Origin: Bacillota bacterium
GTDB taxonomy: Bacteria > Bacillota_I > Bacilli_A > Erysipelotrichales > Coprobacillaceae
Length of the DNA: 32,434 nucleotides
Assembly (NCBI GenBank): GCA_030540195.1
Contig: JAUNWT010000018.1
Location: forward strand, 1-32,434
Direction of reading: 5' to 3'
A program made the translations under genes and the position numbers. Of this stretch, positions 3,973-32,055 are shown one piece after another. The notes beneath the pieces were generated by a model. The model was given only the letters and a program-made list of their open reading frames with translations, did not search any database and was not told where the DNA came from. The number at the start of each line of letters is the position of its first letter. Position 1 is the stretch's first letter.

Positions 3973-4205
3973 ATATAAATAAACTCAATGAAAAAGAGAG
4001 TAGTTTTATTGGATATGTTAGAGAGCCTATGTTGGTGGAAATTAGGTATTGAAAATAAAATGAAGCGCACTTTGGAGAGGGTTATCTGAATACATAGGAT
4101 AACAAGCTAACCAGCTTTAACGGTGAGGTGGATATGTTTATCATATCAACAAGAGTGGTACCGCGGAATCTTTCGTCTCTTAGCAATCGCTAGGAGACGT
4201 TTTTT
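3973..4205 (+). promoter_or_regulatory. T-box leader (tRNA-sensing), likely arginine-specific
   Basis: The T-box sequence AGAGTGGTACCGCGG is at 4152-4166. Stem I has AGAGAGCC and GGTGG in its distal part and a UUUUAUU/AAUAAAA stem next to the specifier loop. The loop reads GAAGCGCAC (4062-4070) opposite AGUA. The specifier is usually followed by a purine, and CGC (4066-4068) followed by A fits, giving arginine. GCG (alanine) is the alternative. The bulge base after UGG is U, which suits a tRNA with discriminator A (or G by wobble) and argues against histidine (C73). Uncharged tRNA would stabilise the antiterminator and allow readthrough into the uptake operon. T-box identity is firm; specificity is inferred. 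Confidence 0.93.
4174..4205 (+). terminator. T-box attenuator terminator
   Basis: CGTCTCTTAGC (4174-4184) pairs with GCTAGGAGACG (4189-4199) with one G-U pair and a 4-nt loop, followed by six T. It is mutually exclusive with the antiterminator formed by the T-box sequence. Confidence 0.9.
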
Positions 4206-27163: not shown

Positions 27164-28711
27164 ATGAAAAGAGAATTAGTTATTGTCATGGATTTTGGTG
27201 GGCAATACAACCAATTAGTTGCACGTCGTGTTCGCGAATGTAATGTTTATTGTGAGATTTATTCTTATAAAACACCTTTAGAAAAAATTAAAGAAATGAA
27301 TCCTAAAGGAATCATTTTAACTGGTGGACCAAATAGTTGTTATTTAGAAGATTCACCAACTTATTCTAAAGAATTATTTGAATTAGGTATTCCTGTATTA
27401 GGATTATGTTATGGTGCTCAATTAATGCAACATGTTTTAGGTGGTAAAGTTGAAAGAGCAGATGTAAGAGAATATGGTAAATCAATTTTATTAGTTGATC
27501 AACCTGAATCTAAAATCTTAAAAGGTGTTCCTGAAACTTCTACAGTTTGGATGTCACATTTTGATTATATTTCAAAAACAGCACCTGGATTTGAAATTAC
27601 AACACATACAAAAGATTGTCCAGTGGCATCTTGTGAAAATAAAGAAAAAGATTTATATGCTATTCAATTCCATCCAGAAGTTTTACATAGTGAATATGGT
27701 AAAACAATGCTTTCTAACTTCGTCTTAGATGTATGTAACTGTGCTGGAGATTGGCGCATGGATTCTTTCGTTGAAGAACAAATCAAAGCTATCAAAGAAA
27801 AAGTAGGTGATGGTAAAGTATTATGTGCTTTATCAGGTGGTGTTGATTCTTCAGTTGCGGCAGTTTTACTTTCTAAAGCAATTGGTAATCAATTAACTTG
27901 TGTCTTTGTTGATCATGGTTTACTTCGTAAAAACGAAGGGGATGAAGTAGAAGCTGTTTTTGGACCTGATGGAAATTATGAATTAAATTTCATTAGAGTA
28001 AATGCTCAAGAAAGATATTATGAAAAGCTAAAAGGCGTTACTGAACCAGAAGCTAAACGTAAAATCATTGGTGAAGAATTTATTCGTGTTTTTGAAGAAG
28101 AAGCAAAGAAAATTGGAGCAGTTGATTTCTTAGTACAAGGAACAATTTATCCAGACGTTGTTGAAAGTGGTCTTGGTGGAGAATCTGCCGTTATCAAATC
28201 ACATCATAATGTTGGTGGATTACCAGATCATGTTGATTTTAAAGAAATTATTGAACCATTACGTGATTTATTTAAAGATGAAGTACGTAAAGTTGGTTTA
28301 GAATTAGGAATTCCTGAATACTTAGTATTTAGACAACCATTCCCAGGACCAGGTCTTGGTATTCGTATCATTGGTGAAGTTAATGCTGAAAAAGTAAGAA
28401 TCGTACAAGATGCTGATGCAATCTATAGAGAAGAAATCGCTAATGCTGGATTAGATCGTTCAATCGGTCAATATTTTGCCGCTCTTACAAACATGCGTTC
28501 TGTAGGAGTTATGGGTGATGAAAGAACTTATGATTATGCAATCGCCTTACGTGCGGTTAATACTATTGATTTCATGACAGCAGAAGCTGCAGAAATTCCT
28601 TATGAAGTATTAAATAAAGTTATGTCACGTATTATAAATGAAGTTCGTGGGGTAAACAGAGTAATGTATGATATTACAAGTAAGCCTCCAGGAACTATTG
28701 AATTCGAATAA
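27164..28711 (+). CDS. guaA: GMP synthase (glutamine-hydrolysing)
   Basis: A 515-residue two-domain enzyme that aminates XMP to GMP. The N-terminal class I glutamine amidotransferase domain has [17 protein letters not shown], the nucleophile cysteine in [11 protein letters not shown] and the histidine-glutamate pair in QFHPEV. The ATP pyrophosphatase domain has the P-loop [12 protein letters not shown] and the C-terminal dimerisation domain ends in KPPGTIEFE. An AAAGGAGG site precedes the ATG. The 3' end of guaA is a known insertion target for integrative elements, and accessory DNA begins right after this gene. Confidence 0.98.
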
Positions 28712-28772
28712 TTTGATGTTATTTTGTAACGAATACGGTTCACAAAATTAGCAACAAATAATATCCACAAAT

Positions 28773-28820
28773 AAGGATACAAAACAGGTAATACAAAAGC
28801 CTGTCTTGTGTCCTTTTTTT
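28773..28820 (+). terminator. Terminator of purA-guaA
   Basis: A 16-nt arm AAGGATACAAAACAGG (28773-28788) pairs with CCTGTCTTGTGTCCTT (28800-28815) with one G-U pair and one mismatch, followed by T to 28820. It is 60 nt past the guaA stop. Confidence 0.85.
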
Positions 28821-29071
28821 GTTGAAAATAAAGAGTTTGCGAGGTGTTGTAAACAAGATAGGTAAGAGGTATGGAGAGAGGACAGGTAGCAGGTGCCAAA
28901 CTTGAAATAATACTATGGTAATGAATGCTGTCAATGGGGATAATGATGAAGACAGTTAAAAGTGAATATACTGATATTCAAAAAAAATCCTGTGAATAAA
29001 GTTATGTGGATTGTTAGAAAATTATCAAAATTCGGTGATTATAAGAATGATAACGGTTCTATAAATTAAAC

Positions 29072-29227
29072 TTTGATATAGATGATGTGAGTGGAAGCAC
29101 AAGATAGTGTTCTGATTTAATGAAAAGGCAGGAGATAAAACTGGATAGTGATGAGCTTTATGAAGAATTCTAGAGAATTTGTGATGAAAGTGTTGGCAAA
29201 GATGATGATAAAAAAGGAGGAAGATAA
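29072..29227 (+). pseudogene. Broken reading frame of unknown origin
   Basis: In one frame the sequence reads FDIDDVSGSTR, stop, CSDLMKRQEIKLDSDELYEEF, stop, then RICDESVGKDDDKKGGR and a final stop. The stops are at 29105-29107 and 29165-29173. The charged, protein-like composition and Asp/Glu-rich pattern suggest former coding sequence. I cannot name the family. Confidence 0.35.
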
Positions 29228-29292
29228 GATGTGGAATATGGACAGAGAAAGTTGTAAATTGAGAAACCTATATGTATAATAATTTTAAGAGA

Positions 29293-29540
29293 GTGATTAT
29301 AAATATTGAATCAATATCTGATTTGAAAAATTATACAGAAGTATGGAAAGAAGTTGATACAACAAACGGATTTTTCCTTACAAGAAATGGGTATACTGAG
29401 TAGGAAATCTTACTATGGAAGAGATTGATAAGCTTGATTATTACAAAGTGTCATGTACTTTTTTTAATTGCAGAAAATAAGAAAAAGCAAATAAAGAAGG
29501 TTGAATTGATGTTGATTATTTGCCGAAAAAGCTGAGGTAA
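29293..29540 (+). pseudogene. Decayed Phd/YefM-type antitoxin gene
   Basis: The N-terminal frame from 29293 reads INIESISDLKNYTEVWKE, then FFLTRNGYTE and a TAG at 29401-29403. This matches the family pattern IS(D)LRNYTEVL...VFLTKNG. A second frame, from 29415, continues with MEEIDKLDYYKV, a TAA at 29478-29480, then KANKEG, a TGA at 29502-29504 where tryptophan is expected, and IDVDYLPKKLR, which fits the YefM C-terminal pattern EGWIDVDEL. So there is one frameshift and several nonsense codons. The intact ancestor would bind a RelE/YoeB-type toxin and repress its own operon. Confidence 0.75.
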
Positions 29541-29815
29541 ACCAAGCTTTATGTATAAATTAACAGATGTAAAGTGATAAGCTGCGGAAATTTAATAGAT
29601 AGATTATCTGTTCATAGGGAAAACAAATTGCTACAAGAATTGTGATAAAGATTATGGAAGTAAATTGTGGACTTCTGAATAGTCTAAAAAAGGTGCATCT
29701 GGTAAACTTTGCTTGGGATTTATACATCATATAGTTATGCATTTTATAAAATAAAAAATTCTTGTATTGAAAATGACGTAAAATCAAGGTTTTTGGGCGA
29801 TTAAATGTTACTAAA
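29541..29815 (+). pseudogene. Possible remnant of the cognate RelE-type toxin
   Basis: Directly after the broken antitoxin gene, three frames hold scattered toxin-like fragments, such as QIATRIVIKIM, KKGASGKLCLGFIHH and KIKVFGRLNVTK. Their order and spacing loosely suit a RelE/ParE protein. Every frame is interrupted several times. The call rests mainly on position after the antitoxin. Confidence 0.25.
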
Positions 29816-29844
29816 TGTACGCAATTAGTAACAAATTAGTAACA
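29806..29844. repeat. TTAGTAACA repeats next to integrase stop
   Basis: TTAGTAACA occurs at 29825-29833 and 29836-29844, 11 bp apart (one helical turn), with an inverted copy TGTTACTAA at 29806-29814. A one-mismatch copy, TTAGCAACA, is at 28748-28756 near guaA. The layout suits arm-type binding sites of the integrase at one element end. Confidence 0.5.
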
Positions 29845-29848
29845 AAAA

Positions 29849-30982
29849 TTATACTTTTATTTTGTTGATTTCAGTATATAGTTTATTAATAACTGTATCG
29901 GTATAAGTATCGAAAGTAATATCTTTCATTTTGTGACCAAGAATTCTTTTTCTAGAAAATACATCAACATTATTTAATTGACAAAGAGTAGTGAAAGTTA
30001 CCCTTGTATCATGTAGTGTGTGTTTCATGTTCAATTTTTCTATGTATGGCTTGAAATGATTTTTGAAAAAATTATTATAGCTTTGGTCAATAATCCTTTT
30101 CCCTTTATGCAATAACAATTCAATAACATAAGGTTTAATACAATCATGTATAGGAACAACTCTATTTTTACCAGCTTCTGTTTTCAACCCTGTGTAAAAA
30201 TAAGATACTTTACGTTCAACACCATCATCATTACATATAACATCAATATGTATGTCTTTTCTATCGATATTAAGTAATTCATTTGCTCTTAAGCCACTAA
30301 AAATATAAATGAGTATAATTTTAGCTATGTCGGTGTTTTCGCTTCTTAGACACTTAATTTCATCAATTGAGAATTTATAGTGCTTTCCATTTTCTTCAAG
30401 TTTTCCACATCTTATAAATTCTGTATAATCATCATCACGATTGATGTATTGATGTATTACGGCATATTTAAAAATTTTACAACATAAGGCTTTCATGTGT
30501 ACTTTTGTTCCTTGGCCACATTTATCTTTATCGAAAATTAACTGCAGGTCTTGAAGCGTTATTGTATTTATTTTTCTATCGTATATTAATTTAAAATGTT
30601 TGATCCATGAATTATATCCGTCACGCGCTGATTTTGATAGAGATACAAATTCTTCTAAATCTAATATTTCAAAGATTTCTTTAAATGTTGGAACTTTACT
30701 ATCATGTCTTTCCTTAACTTTGTTAAATATATTAGGAGATAATTCTTTTGCTTCTTTATCGTTGATTTGTTTATTAACAGTTAAATGATAAAGTGATAGT
30801 GCATTTAAAGCTTCAAGTTCAGTTTCAAAAGTACCAATGGTTACTTGTTTTTTCTTACCTGTAACAAGATCATAATCTTCGCTTGTAATTTTGGCACAGT
30901 AGGGTTTTCTACGTTTGCCTGATAGTTTTACTACAGTACCACTATTATTTGGTCTACGCTTATATGTAACTTTTCTAGCCAT
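29849..30982 (-). CDS. Tyrosine recombinase (integrase) of an integrative element
   Basis: A 377-residue integrase from ATG 30982. The N-terminus (about 1-60) is basic and resembles an AP2-like arm-binding domain, followed by a SAM-like core-binding domain (about 97-185) and the catalytic domain. All catalytic residues are visible: R232 (SGLRANELL), K267 (TGLKTEAGKNR), H324 and R327 (HDTR), H350 (ILGHK) and the tyrosine nucleophile Y360 (DTYTD). It should integrate and excise a mobile element. The open frame extends seven codons to a TTG, but AAAGGA just inside that extension is the ribosome site for the ATG. It transcribes toward guaA. Its leader faces a predicted antisense RNA and contains a hairpin enclosing the ribosome site. 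Confidence 0.92.
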   Translation of the reverse strand: MARKVTYKRRPNNSGTVVKLSGKRRKPYCAKITSEDYDLVTGKKKQVTIGTFETELEALNALSLYHLTVNKQINDKEAKELSPNIFNKVKERHDSKVPTFKEIFEILDLEEFVSLSKSARDGYNSWIKHFKLIYDRKINTITLQDLQLIFDKDKCGQGTKVHMKALCCKIFKYAVIHQYINRDDDYTEFIRCGKLEENGKHYKFSIDEIKCLRSENTDIAKIILIYIFSGLRANELLNIDRKDIHIDVICNDDGVERKVSYFYTGLKTEAGKNRVVPIHDCIKPYVIELLLHKGKRIIDQSYNNFFKNHFKPYIEKLNMKHTLHDTRVTFTTLCQLNNVDVFSRKRILGHKMKDITFDTYTDTVINKLYTEINKIKV

Positions 30983-30985
30983 AAT

Positions 30986-31023
30986 AAAAACACGTCCTTT
31001 CAATTATATTTGCCTTGAACGTG
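30986..31023 (-). promoter_or_regulatory. Leader hairpin enclosing the integrase ribosome site
   Basis: On the minus strand CACG-TTCAA (31023-31015) can pair with TTGAA-AGGA-CGTG (31003-30991), placing AGGA in a bulge. Five T follow at 30990-30986, just before the ATG. It could sequester the ribosome site or act as a weak attenuator. The pairing is direct reading; its function is inference. Confidence 0.45.
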
Positions 31024-31045: not shown

Positions 31046-31132
31046 CGTAAAAGGACTTTTGAGATGGTTCTTTTTATGAGTGATATTGGCGTATCACTCG
31101 TTTACATCCTAGTTGGCGCTAGGGTGTTTTTT
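31046..31132 (+). ncRNA. Predicted antisense RNA with twin UUGGCG-loop hairpins
   Basis: About 87 nt opposite the integrase leader. Hairpin 1 is GAGTGATA (31078-31085), loop TTGGCG, TATCACTC (31092-31099). Hairpin 2 is ACATCCTAG (31104-31112), loop TTGGCG, CTAGGGTGT (31119-31127) with one G-U pair, followed by six T to 31132, so it doubles as terminator. UUGG fits the YUNR U-turn motif known from loops of regulatory antisense RNAs such as those of pIP501- and pT181-type plasmids. The integrase mRNA would carry complementary CGCCAA loops. A 32-codon frame overlaps it (see separate entry). RNA status is predicted, not shown. Confidence 0.6.
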
Positions 31133-31162
31133 CATATTTTGGTTTACATTTTTTTCAAATAA
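31064..31162 (+). CDS. Possible 32-residue hydrophobic peptide
   Basis: ATG 31064 follows AAAAGGA (31049-31055) at 8-nt spacing. The frame encodes a small hydrophobic peptide beginning MVLFMSDIGVSLVYILVGA, with an arginine at position 20 and a lysine C-terminus. This resembles the size and character of type I toxin peptides. Against it, the TTGGCG terminator hairpin and its T-run lie inside the frame, so most transcripts should end before the stop codon, and T-rich DNA encodes hydrophobic residues by default. Low confidence as a real gene. Confidence 0.25.
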   Translation: MVLFMSDIGVSLVYILVGARVFFHILVYIFFK

Positions 31163-31164
31163 TA

Positions 31165-31192
31165 TTGAAAATTGAATTGAATTAAGTATAAT
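31165..31192 (+). promoter_or_regulatory. Promoter of the DUF3800-adjacent RNA
   Basis: TTGAAA (31165-31170), 16 bp, TATAAT (31187-31192). The predicted start is about 31198, right at the first base-paired segment of the RNA. Confidence 0.72.
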
Positions 31193-31197
31193 ATAAG

Positions 31198-31304
31198 TAC
31201 CGGAGGGCAACCTCGACTGGTCTATAAATGATGACTGATTAAAGTAATTAAGCGTACTGTAAGTACGTCAGCTCATTTAGGAAGTGGCTTAGGCCACTTT
31301 TTTT
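31198..31304 (+). ncRNA. Structured RNA tail-to-tail with the DUF3800 gene
   Basis: About 105 nt bounded by a good promoter and a clear terminator. A 5' hairpin has GAGG (31203-31206), GCAA tetraloop and CCTC (31211-31214), extended by ACC/GGT (31199-31201 with 31219-31221). A central stem pairs TAAATGA (31225-31231) with TCATTTA (31273-31279). Inside it TGAC (31232-31235) pairs with GTCA (31267-31270) and GTAC-TGTAA-GTAC (31254-31266) makes a hairpin. The terminator is AAGTGGC-TTAG-GCCACTT (31282-31299) plus T. It has no ribosome site or useful frame. Structured RNAs named DUF3800 motifs have been described beside DUF3800 genes; whether this is one of them needs a covariance search. Confidence 0.7.
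31282..31304 (+). terminator. Terminator of the structured RNA
   Basis: AAGTGGC (31282-31288), loop TTAG, GCCACTT (31293-31299), T to 31304. On the minus strand it lacks a U-run, so it does not end the DUF3800 transcript. Confidence 0.88.
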
Positions 31305-32055
31305 ATGGCAATAATAATTTTATTTTTAAAAAGGAATTAAGCTTTTGATTTAATTCTAGGCTTGTAGTTGAATTTAAAGCTGTTTTTCTAACATGACCAG
31401 CAATTAAATCAGATGCTTGTATTGAATAAACTTTCTTTGAGTCCATATATTCAACATCAACATTTAATTTTCCAAATATAATAGGCTTATGACGTATATT
31501 ATAATTGAAATTATATATACCGTTTGCTAACTCTTCATTAATGCTTTCTTTAAGGGAATAGTAGCCATTGCTTTTTGTTGATTGTTGATCAATACGAATC
31601 ACTAAATTTAAATCTTCTTGAGGATCAATGATTCCTTCTTCAATGTAATAGGTAACTATTTTTTTGATTATCATTTTTTGAGCATAATCAGTATATCTTC
31701 CTTTACTGGCTTTTGAACTTAATATGTTTGGATAAACTTTATGATTGTTAATAATAACTGCATAGGTACAATGCTGTTTACAAAGATTAATCATTCGTCG
31801 TTTATGACTGCTTTTTATATTGATACTTTTTATTTCAGGACATTCATTTGTGCAATTATCAGCGTTATTACAATATCTGCATTTTATGTCGTTCAATATT
31901 GATTTATATCTTCGATTAAATCTATCTTTCTCTGATGCACTTTTAAAAACAATTCCAGCAAAAACAGATACATCTTCTTTAGGTGTTAATTTTCCTGAAT
32001 CATCCATGAATATGTAAATTGTTAATGTCTTCGTTTTTGTTTTTACCGTATCCAT
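31303..32055 (-). CDS. DUF3800-family protein with a cysteine cluster
   Basis: A 250-residue protein with DUF3800 (PF12686) features. The N-terminal acidic motif is IFMDDSG (D18, D19) followed by FAGIVF. The central acidic residue is D156 (VIRIDQQ), and the C-terminal motif is IQASDLIAG (Q213, D216). The spread of acidic residues fits an RNase H-like fold suspected of nuclease activity; the function is unproven. An inserted cysteine group, C59-X2-C62-X5-C68-X3-C72, with C92 and C96 later, may bind zinc. AAAGGAGG precedes the ATG. It is 27 nt downstream of the frameshifted gene and upstream of the integrase, all on the minus strand. Its stop abuts the terminator of the structured RNA on the other strand. 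Confidence 0.8.
   Translation of the reverse strand: MDTVKTKTKTLTIYIFMDDSGKLTPKEDVSVFAGIVFKSASEKDRFNRRYKSILNDIKCRYCNNADNCTNECPEIKSINIKSSHKRRMINLCKQHCTYAVIINNHKVYPNILSSKASKGRYTDYAQKMIIKKIVTYYIEEGIIDPQEDLNLVIRIDQQSTKSNGYYSLKESINEELANGIYNFNYNIRHKPIIFGKLNVDVEYMDSKKVYSIQASDLIAGHVRKTALNSTTSLELNQKLNSFLKIKLLLP

Follow-up and report, generated by a model that had tools for sequence, protein, structure and literature searches.

The DUF3800 gene near the end of the window (the whole 32,434-nucleotide stretch analysed here) lies tail to tail with a structured RNA, and comparison with relatives supports the view that selection maintains this RNA as a transcription unit of its own, evolutionarily tied to one clade of DUF3800 proteins. 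Judged from its placement among relatives, the RNA most likely acts in trans. The window copy is an ordinary, convergent member of the DUF3800-I family of Rfam with nothing distinctive about it, and that family, known but unexplained, has already been described together with its association with DUF3800 genes: Rfam 15 lists DUF3800-I as covarying, and an association of DUF3800 with putative non-coding RNAs is cited in PMC10910872. What is added here is the argument that the RNA acts in trans, together with a specific, testable model resembling toxin-antitoxin systems.

The RNA and its convergent gene

Comparison with Rfam, a check proposed in the first-pass annotation of this DNA, assigns 31192-31311 (plus strand) to RF02969 over the full length of the model (positions 1-115 of 115; 73.8 bits against a gathering threshold of 44.2 bits, E 8.5e-10), with a DUF3800 gene adjacent, as expected of the family. 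The features of the locus are as follows.

31165..31192, plus strand: promoter of the RNA, TTGAAA-16-TATAAT; the top promoter match of the region
31199..31304, plus strand: DUF3800-I RNA, predicted transcript of ~105 nt; full RF02969 model, covariation in 63 distinct relatives
31198..31222, plus strand: stem P1 with GCAA loop and a bulge on the 3' side; Rfam consensus and single-sequence fold
31225..31279, plus strand: three-way junction core P2/P3/P4; Rfam consensus and per-helix pairing in relatives
31225-31230 with 31274-31279 and 31234-31237 with 31269-31272, plus strand: P2
31238-31240 with 31246-31248, plus strand: P3
31252-31257 with 31263-31268, plus strand: P4
31280..31304, plus strand: Rho-independent terminator (stem of 9 bp plus U-tract) that overlaps the DUF3800 stop codon
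31303..32055, minus strand: DUF3800 gene, 250 aa, predicted RNase HII-like fold; Pfam PF12686, AlphaFold2 and Foldseek

The anatomy previously read from the letters holds up throughout. The promoter matches consensus at 11 of 12 positions and, because of its location, the transcript is predicted to run from ~31199 to ~31304. The GNRA-capped hairpin is P1, and the nested multi-stem core and strong terminator are seen in the single-sequence fold, which has a minimum free energy of -32.1 kcal/mol (z = -3.0; 1 of 200 shuffles equally stable). The RNA contains no open reading frame of at least 30 aa, in keeping with its described lack of coding potential, and gene and RNA do end together, the T run of the U-tract (31298-31304) overlapping the stop codon of the convergent gene. 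P3 has only 3 bp and is open in the single-sequence minimum; the three-way junction is that of the Rfam consensus. Among relatives the P1 hairpin is conserved and its GNRA cap is not. Just upstream of the promoter, at 31104-31133, lies another terminator-like hairpin followed by a T-run, which would shield the RNA from upstream transcription.

The protein belongs to PF12686 (42.4 bits, E 1.5e-10; curated cut-off 21 bits). Its AlphaFold2 model (pLDDT 93.7, pTM 0.90) was compared by Foldseek with solved structures, among which RNase HII 1eke ranked top (E 6e-5, probability 1.0), followed by other RNase H2 structures; the likeness to RNase HII is one of fold, at 12% identity and a TM-score of about 0.5. 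Across 71 sequences D18, D156, D216, K76, R120 and K131 are invariant; in a second comparison of proteins, residue 19 is D or E. As in RNase HII (rnhB), a D-(D/E) closes the first strand and two more Asp are conserved, and these residues may correspond to the D-E-D-D active site of that enzyme. DUF3800 differs from RNase HII in its extra insertions and its RNA partner, and catalysis by it is putative. An RNase H fold was reported earlier for a Cas12a2-linked DUF3800 protein (PMC10910872). A search of the PDB by sequence returned no relative, and PADLOC models gave no match to the locus at E 0.1. The protein was not placed in the ToxN/AbiQ fold family: its Pfam and PHROG matches are to DUF3800 or unnamed families, and its predicted fold matches RNase HII.

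Pairing and covariation among relatives

Relatives were found by protein alone, giving 113 loci (71 in genomes and 42 in viral contigs), of which the genome sample is skewed to the clade of the window by the closer protein alignment used as query. With 14 RNAs of the same order as its basis, a covariance model detects the RNA at 66 of the 71 genome loci and 40 of the 42 viral loci; a weak match at L159 brings the total to 107 of 113 with an RNA beside or near the gene. The prospect, raised beforehand, that homologous loci would consistently lack the RNA was therefore not borne out. Within 316 genomes of the same order, a DUF3800 protein occurs in 58 and the RNA in 17. Where the RNA is clear, the neighbouring DUF3800 proteins make up a single coherent group, well separated in score from the next-best DUF3800. 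Another clade's DUF3800 genes are immediately preceded by DUF3800-XI RNAs (RF02975; L033:1412-1459 and L041:1410-1457), so different DUF3800 clades carry different RNAs.

Six loci have no RNA nearby. Two are cut by contig ends (L068 and L075), and L140 stands at a contig end in a genome where a different contig carries an RNA 117 bases from its end, the pair probably having been split by assembly. L146 and L147 hold intact-looking DUF3800 genes, and both genomes have the RNA elsewhere. The last, L162, comes from a Saccharibacteria genome in which neither the covariance model nor comparison with L159 found an RNA; it is the one relative with none detected in its genome, and its gene has in-frame TGA codons. 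Saccharibacteria read TGA as glycine.

The stems covary strongly, a check that the first-pass annotation had proposed. Standard pairs fill 92.8% of pair cells across 63 distinct RNAs, against 76.3% after shuffling and 36-49% with slid partners, and cells with double changes number 372, against 92 after shuffling, and affect 28 of 35 pairs; the structure guided the alignment, a bias in its favour, and the margins are nonetheless large. On pairs predicted afresh from that alignment, double changes occur in 20 of 25. Pairing is standard in 98-99% of cells in outer P2, P3 and P4 and in 76% in inner P2. Pairing with the gene and covariation together support the earlier claim of a dedicated structured RNA, transcribed separately and linked to a DUF3800 protein with a nuclease-like fold.

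Three arrangements around a fixed promoter

The 107 pairs fall into three arrangements: the RNA is convergent at the 3' end of the gene in 55 (the type in the window), on the same strand downstream in 31 and on the same strand upstream in 21, counts that are not independent, several viral loci being near-copies. In the convergent type, the RNA mostly ends no more than about 10 bases from the stop codon, and most downstream RNAs start 14 or 60 bases past it. Most upstream RNAs end shortly before the start codon, RNA and terminator preceding the gene by 5-20 nt. In a tree of 114 proteins the arrangements match three protein clades, with just two changes needed. The downstream arrangement is probably ancestral, because sub-threshold relatives of the RNA lie on the same strand downstream of more distant DUF3800 genes (L018, L019, L021 and L023).

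Across these arrangements the promoter stays in place. A sigma-70 promoter (a TTGACA/TATAAT pair) stands in a fixed register before P1 at 54 of 54 convergent, 11 of 17 downstream and 12 of 17 upstream distinct loci, compared with averages of 3.9, 1.0 and 1.2 matches at other offsets. The RNA therefore appears to start at its first stem, as its own transcription unit. Trans action follows as the most likely mode: the place and orientation of the RNA with respect to the gene are free to differ, and such moves would be tolerated by a trans-acting RNA but hardly by a leader element or an antisense RNA.

The cysteine cluster of the window protein, by which the first-pass annotation proposed to collect homologues, does not mark the RNA-linked proteins as a whole. 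Cys 59/62/68/72 form a four-cysteine insertion restricted to the convergent clade (40 of 55 proteins, including that of the window) and absent from the downstream and upstream clades. The C-terminal proline (31303-31308 in the window, and in relatives) is invariant in the protein alignment and probably reflects a constraint at the protein level, since it is kept in all three arrangements. At several loci of the downstream type (L065, L152, L154 and L161), the -35 hexamer of the RNA lies within the end codons of the DUF3800 gene, Leu-Thr-Phe-Pro-stop.

Unlinked RNAs and broken genes

An unlinked, conserved RNA is what trans action would predict, and such RNAs occur in the genomes of L146 and L147. 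In one (G316) the unlinked RNA adjoins a broken DUF3800 gene; in the other (G317) it stands alone, apparently at the same site, the same neighbouring protein following it. From promoter to terminator the two RNAs are 89% identical and their flanks 55%, a comparison that represents a single evolutionary event in two sister lineages. The RNA is also retained where the gene is truncated (L007), frameshifted (L083) or split by insertion (L087), with L173 a further case of a gene damaged in one of these ways, and at L114 an IS91-like transposase gene separates gene and RNA. A dead gene beside a kept RNA was not taken as proof of an antitoxin, the gene being a much larger mutational target than the RNA.

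Two further candidates were set aside. L007, considered as an orphan RNA, holds the truncated DUF3800 gene. Orphan phage RNAs were considered as counter-defence decoys; among the viral-contig matches listed, most were due to chance and the true ones were adjoined by DUF3800.

Genomic neighbourhood

The placement of the pair on a mobile element, as first annotated, is upheld in part. Two genes lie on the side of the RNA away from DUF3800:

27164..28711, plus strand: guaA (GMP synthase), possible integration site; Pfam GATase and GMP_synt_C
29849..31003, minus strand: tyrosine integrase gene of the putative mobile element; PHROG integrase, E 2.1e-35

The integrase gene, which also has Pfam Phage_integrase and Arm-DNA-bind_4 matches, each below its cut-off, stands between the RNA and guaA, a known integration site. 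The contig ends at 32434 with the far end of the element beyond it, and neither attachment repeats nor a second attachment site in the genome was found; a 37-base weak match in another contig, considered as such a site, is probably due to chance. The stretch that separates guaA from the integrase gene (28712-29848, some 1.1 kb) contains short open reading frames only and looks like decayed mobile-element sequence. Repeats of TTAGTAACAAA occur at 29826-29846, near the integrase stop.

Among relatives, integrases make up 7 of 59 flanking proteins in the set dominated by phage contigs and 4 of 81 in the convergent set. The neighbours of the convergent clade are mostly diverse chromosomal genes, and its pairs may represent a small mobile cassette. 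The DUF3800 gene lies near the integrase end of the Streptococcus prophage Javan110 and near one end of the satellite Javan632; such frequent phage and satellite locations suggest a possible role in defence. No Cas families were found among the tallied neighbours of DUF3800 genes. In the nearest relative, from Thomasclavelia (about 75% protein identity), a gene with a PemK/MazF-like toxin domain is next beyond the RNA (L092:1495-2316). Overall, tRNA genes are denser in the 2 kb around DUF3800 genes, and DUF3800 genes outside the RNA-linked clade adjoin tRNA genes at L018, L023 (six in a row), L032, L035 and L042. We did not treat this enrichment as meaningful, as integration into tRNA genes explains it equally.

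Relation to known systems

The closest tested analogue is AbiF/RCd22 of a Clostridioides difficile prophage, whose RNA antidote works both in cis and in trans by binding the toxin (PMC12373285). Like the RNA described here, RCd22 is about 100-130 nt long, contains an Rfam motif, has its own SigA promoter and terminator and is adjacent to its prophage toxin gene (PMC12373285). The proteins differ, however, the toxin Abi_2/AbiF there and an RNase HII-like DUF3800 protein here, as do the RNAs, with two repeated motifs in RCd22 and one three-way-junction unit here; moreover, activity is demonstrated for the RCd22 pair, whereas the DUF3800-I pair is known from sequence comparison. The type III systems ToxIN, CptIN and TenpIN likewise combine a structured RNA with a nuclease-like protein, and the upstream clade has the ToxIN order of RNA, terminator and gene, an order that occurs in that clade only. 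DUF3800-I departs from them in its RNase HII-like protein fold, in the lack of tandem repeats and in an RNA that is transcribed from its own promoter and that occurs downstream, inverted or unlinked. The tandem-repeat antitoxin upstream of terminator and toxin that characterizes type III was not found in the window, where the RNA is a single unit and convergent. The TPR-DUF3800 proteins of Cas12a2 and type VI-F loci share the Pfam domain and the RNase H fold (PMC10910872; PMC12669027), and differ in their reported TPR fusion and CRISPR context.

Proposed mechanism and alternatives

We propose that the DUF3800 protein is an RNase HII-like ribonuclease that would be harmful when free, and that the RNA, folded and transcribed from a consensus promoter of its own, would bind the protein and block it. 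Phage infection or loss of the element could lower the RNA and free the enzyme, which might then cleave RNA or RNA-DNA hybrids. In the upstream clade, where the terminator lies just before the gene, read-through would set the ratio of RNA to mRNA, as in ToxIN. We favour, at about even odds, a type III-like toxin-antitoxin or abortive-infection module in which a single-unit, three-way-junction RNA would restrain an RNase H-like enzyme. Its logic would be that of type III toxin-antitoxin systems and AbiF, although the toxin would have another fold and the antitoxin would be one unit with a three-way junction. Among the readings suggested when the locus was first described, 'RNA-inhibited, type III-like' fits the comparative evidence best. 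A wider proposal, plausible though falling somewhat short of an even chance, is that DUF3800-I pairs form a distinct family of RNA-controlled toxins or abortive-infection effectors, in which an RNase HII-like toxin is neutralised in trans by a one-unit RNA with a three-way junction, and that other DUF3800 motifs are sister antitoxins of sister toxin clades.

Several considerations weigh against an antitoxin: unlike ToxI, the RNA is not a repeat array; the unlinked RNAs go back to a single event; one relative, L162, has no RNA detected in its genome; and an activating cofactor accounts for the comparative data equally well. Such a cofactor is the main rival, a ribonucleoprotein effector in which the RNA would serve as an essential structural cofactor or as a sensor and switch the nuclease on, phage nucleic acid being one possible target; without the RNA the protein would be inert. 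It draws on the same obligate pairing, trans action and conserved unpaired core, and DUF3800 proteins at Cas12a2 loci have been proposed to function in interference or crRNA handling (PMC10910872; PMC12669027). In Legionella, an accessory DUF3800 gene beside antitoxin genes scored essential in Tn-seq (PMC7811196), which is unexpected of a toxin gene; provided that the gene is one of this group, the result counts against a simple toxin, and it fits a non-toxic role. We nevertheless consider the effector rather unlikely, though a serious contender, given that the RNA has no recognised target-sensing part and that in AbiF the RNA is an inhibitor (PMC12373285). Essentiality beside antitoxin genes could also suit a reversal of roles, in which activity or harm would come from the RNA, or the RNA would be a regulatory sRNA, and DUF3800 would process, degrade or restrain it, as its RNase H-like fold would allow. 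Such a reversal is improbable: the RNA persists with the broken genes of L007, L083 and L087, and the L007 genome has no other Pfam-level DUF3800 match.

The option of an RNA-guided nuclease, also put forward initially, is strongly disfavoured. Its appeal lies in the RNase H-like fold, as found in other guided nucleases, and in loops that differ between close relatives (43% in the P1 loop and 27% in the P3 loop, against 6% in the core). These variable parts are confined to short hairpin loops of about 4-10 nt and the terminator, however, no variable unpaired stretch of guide length was found in the close pairs compared, and in all arrangements the RNA starts at P1 and finishes in the terminator. 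A similarly slight probability attaches to the RNA being a cis element that regulates the DUF3800 gene as a leader, an attenuator or an antisense RNA. Some attenuation is likely in the upstream clade, where RNA and terminator sit directly ahead of the gene, but the other two clades have the RNA downstream or on the opposite strand, overlapping just the last codons, and the RNA has its own promoter and conserved unlinked copies. Cis-regulation or antisense action was thus rejected as the general mechanism, position and strand varying by clade while the promoter register does not.

Rfam contains several DUF3800 RNA motifs without a known function, and the evidence that one of them is a trans-acting partner of an RNase HII-like protein makes its role testable. 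If DUF3800-I is an antitoxin, the widespread phage, satellite and chromosomal modules in gut Bacillota would represent toxin-antitoxin or defence systems of a new RNA-protein class, which would also offer a mechanistic model for the DUF3800 proteins beside Cas12a2.

Elsewhere in the window, a T-box leader (3979-4183; RF00230, 133 bits) directly precedes an ABC-type amino-acid transport cluster comprising a solute-binding protein, an ATPase and an aminotransferase.
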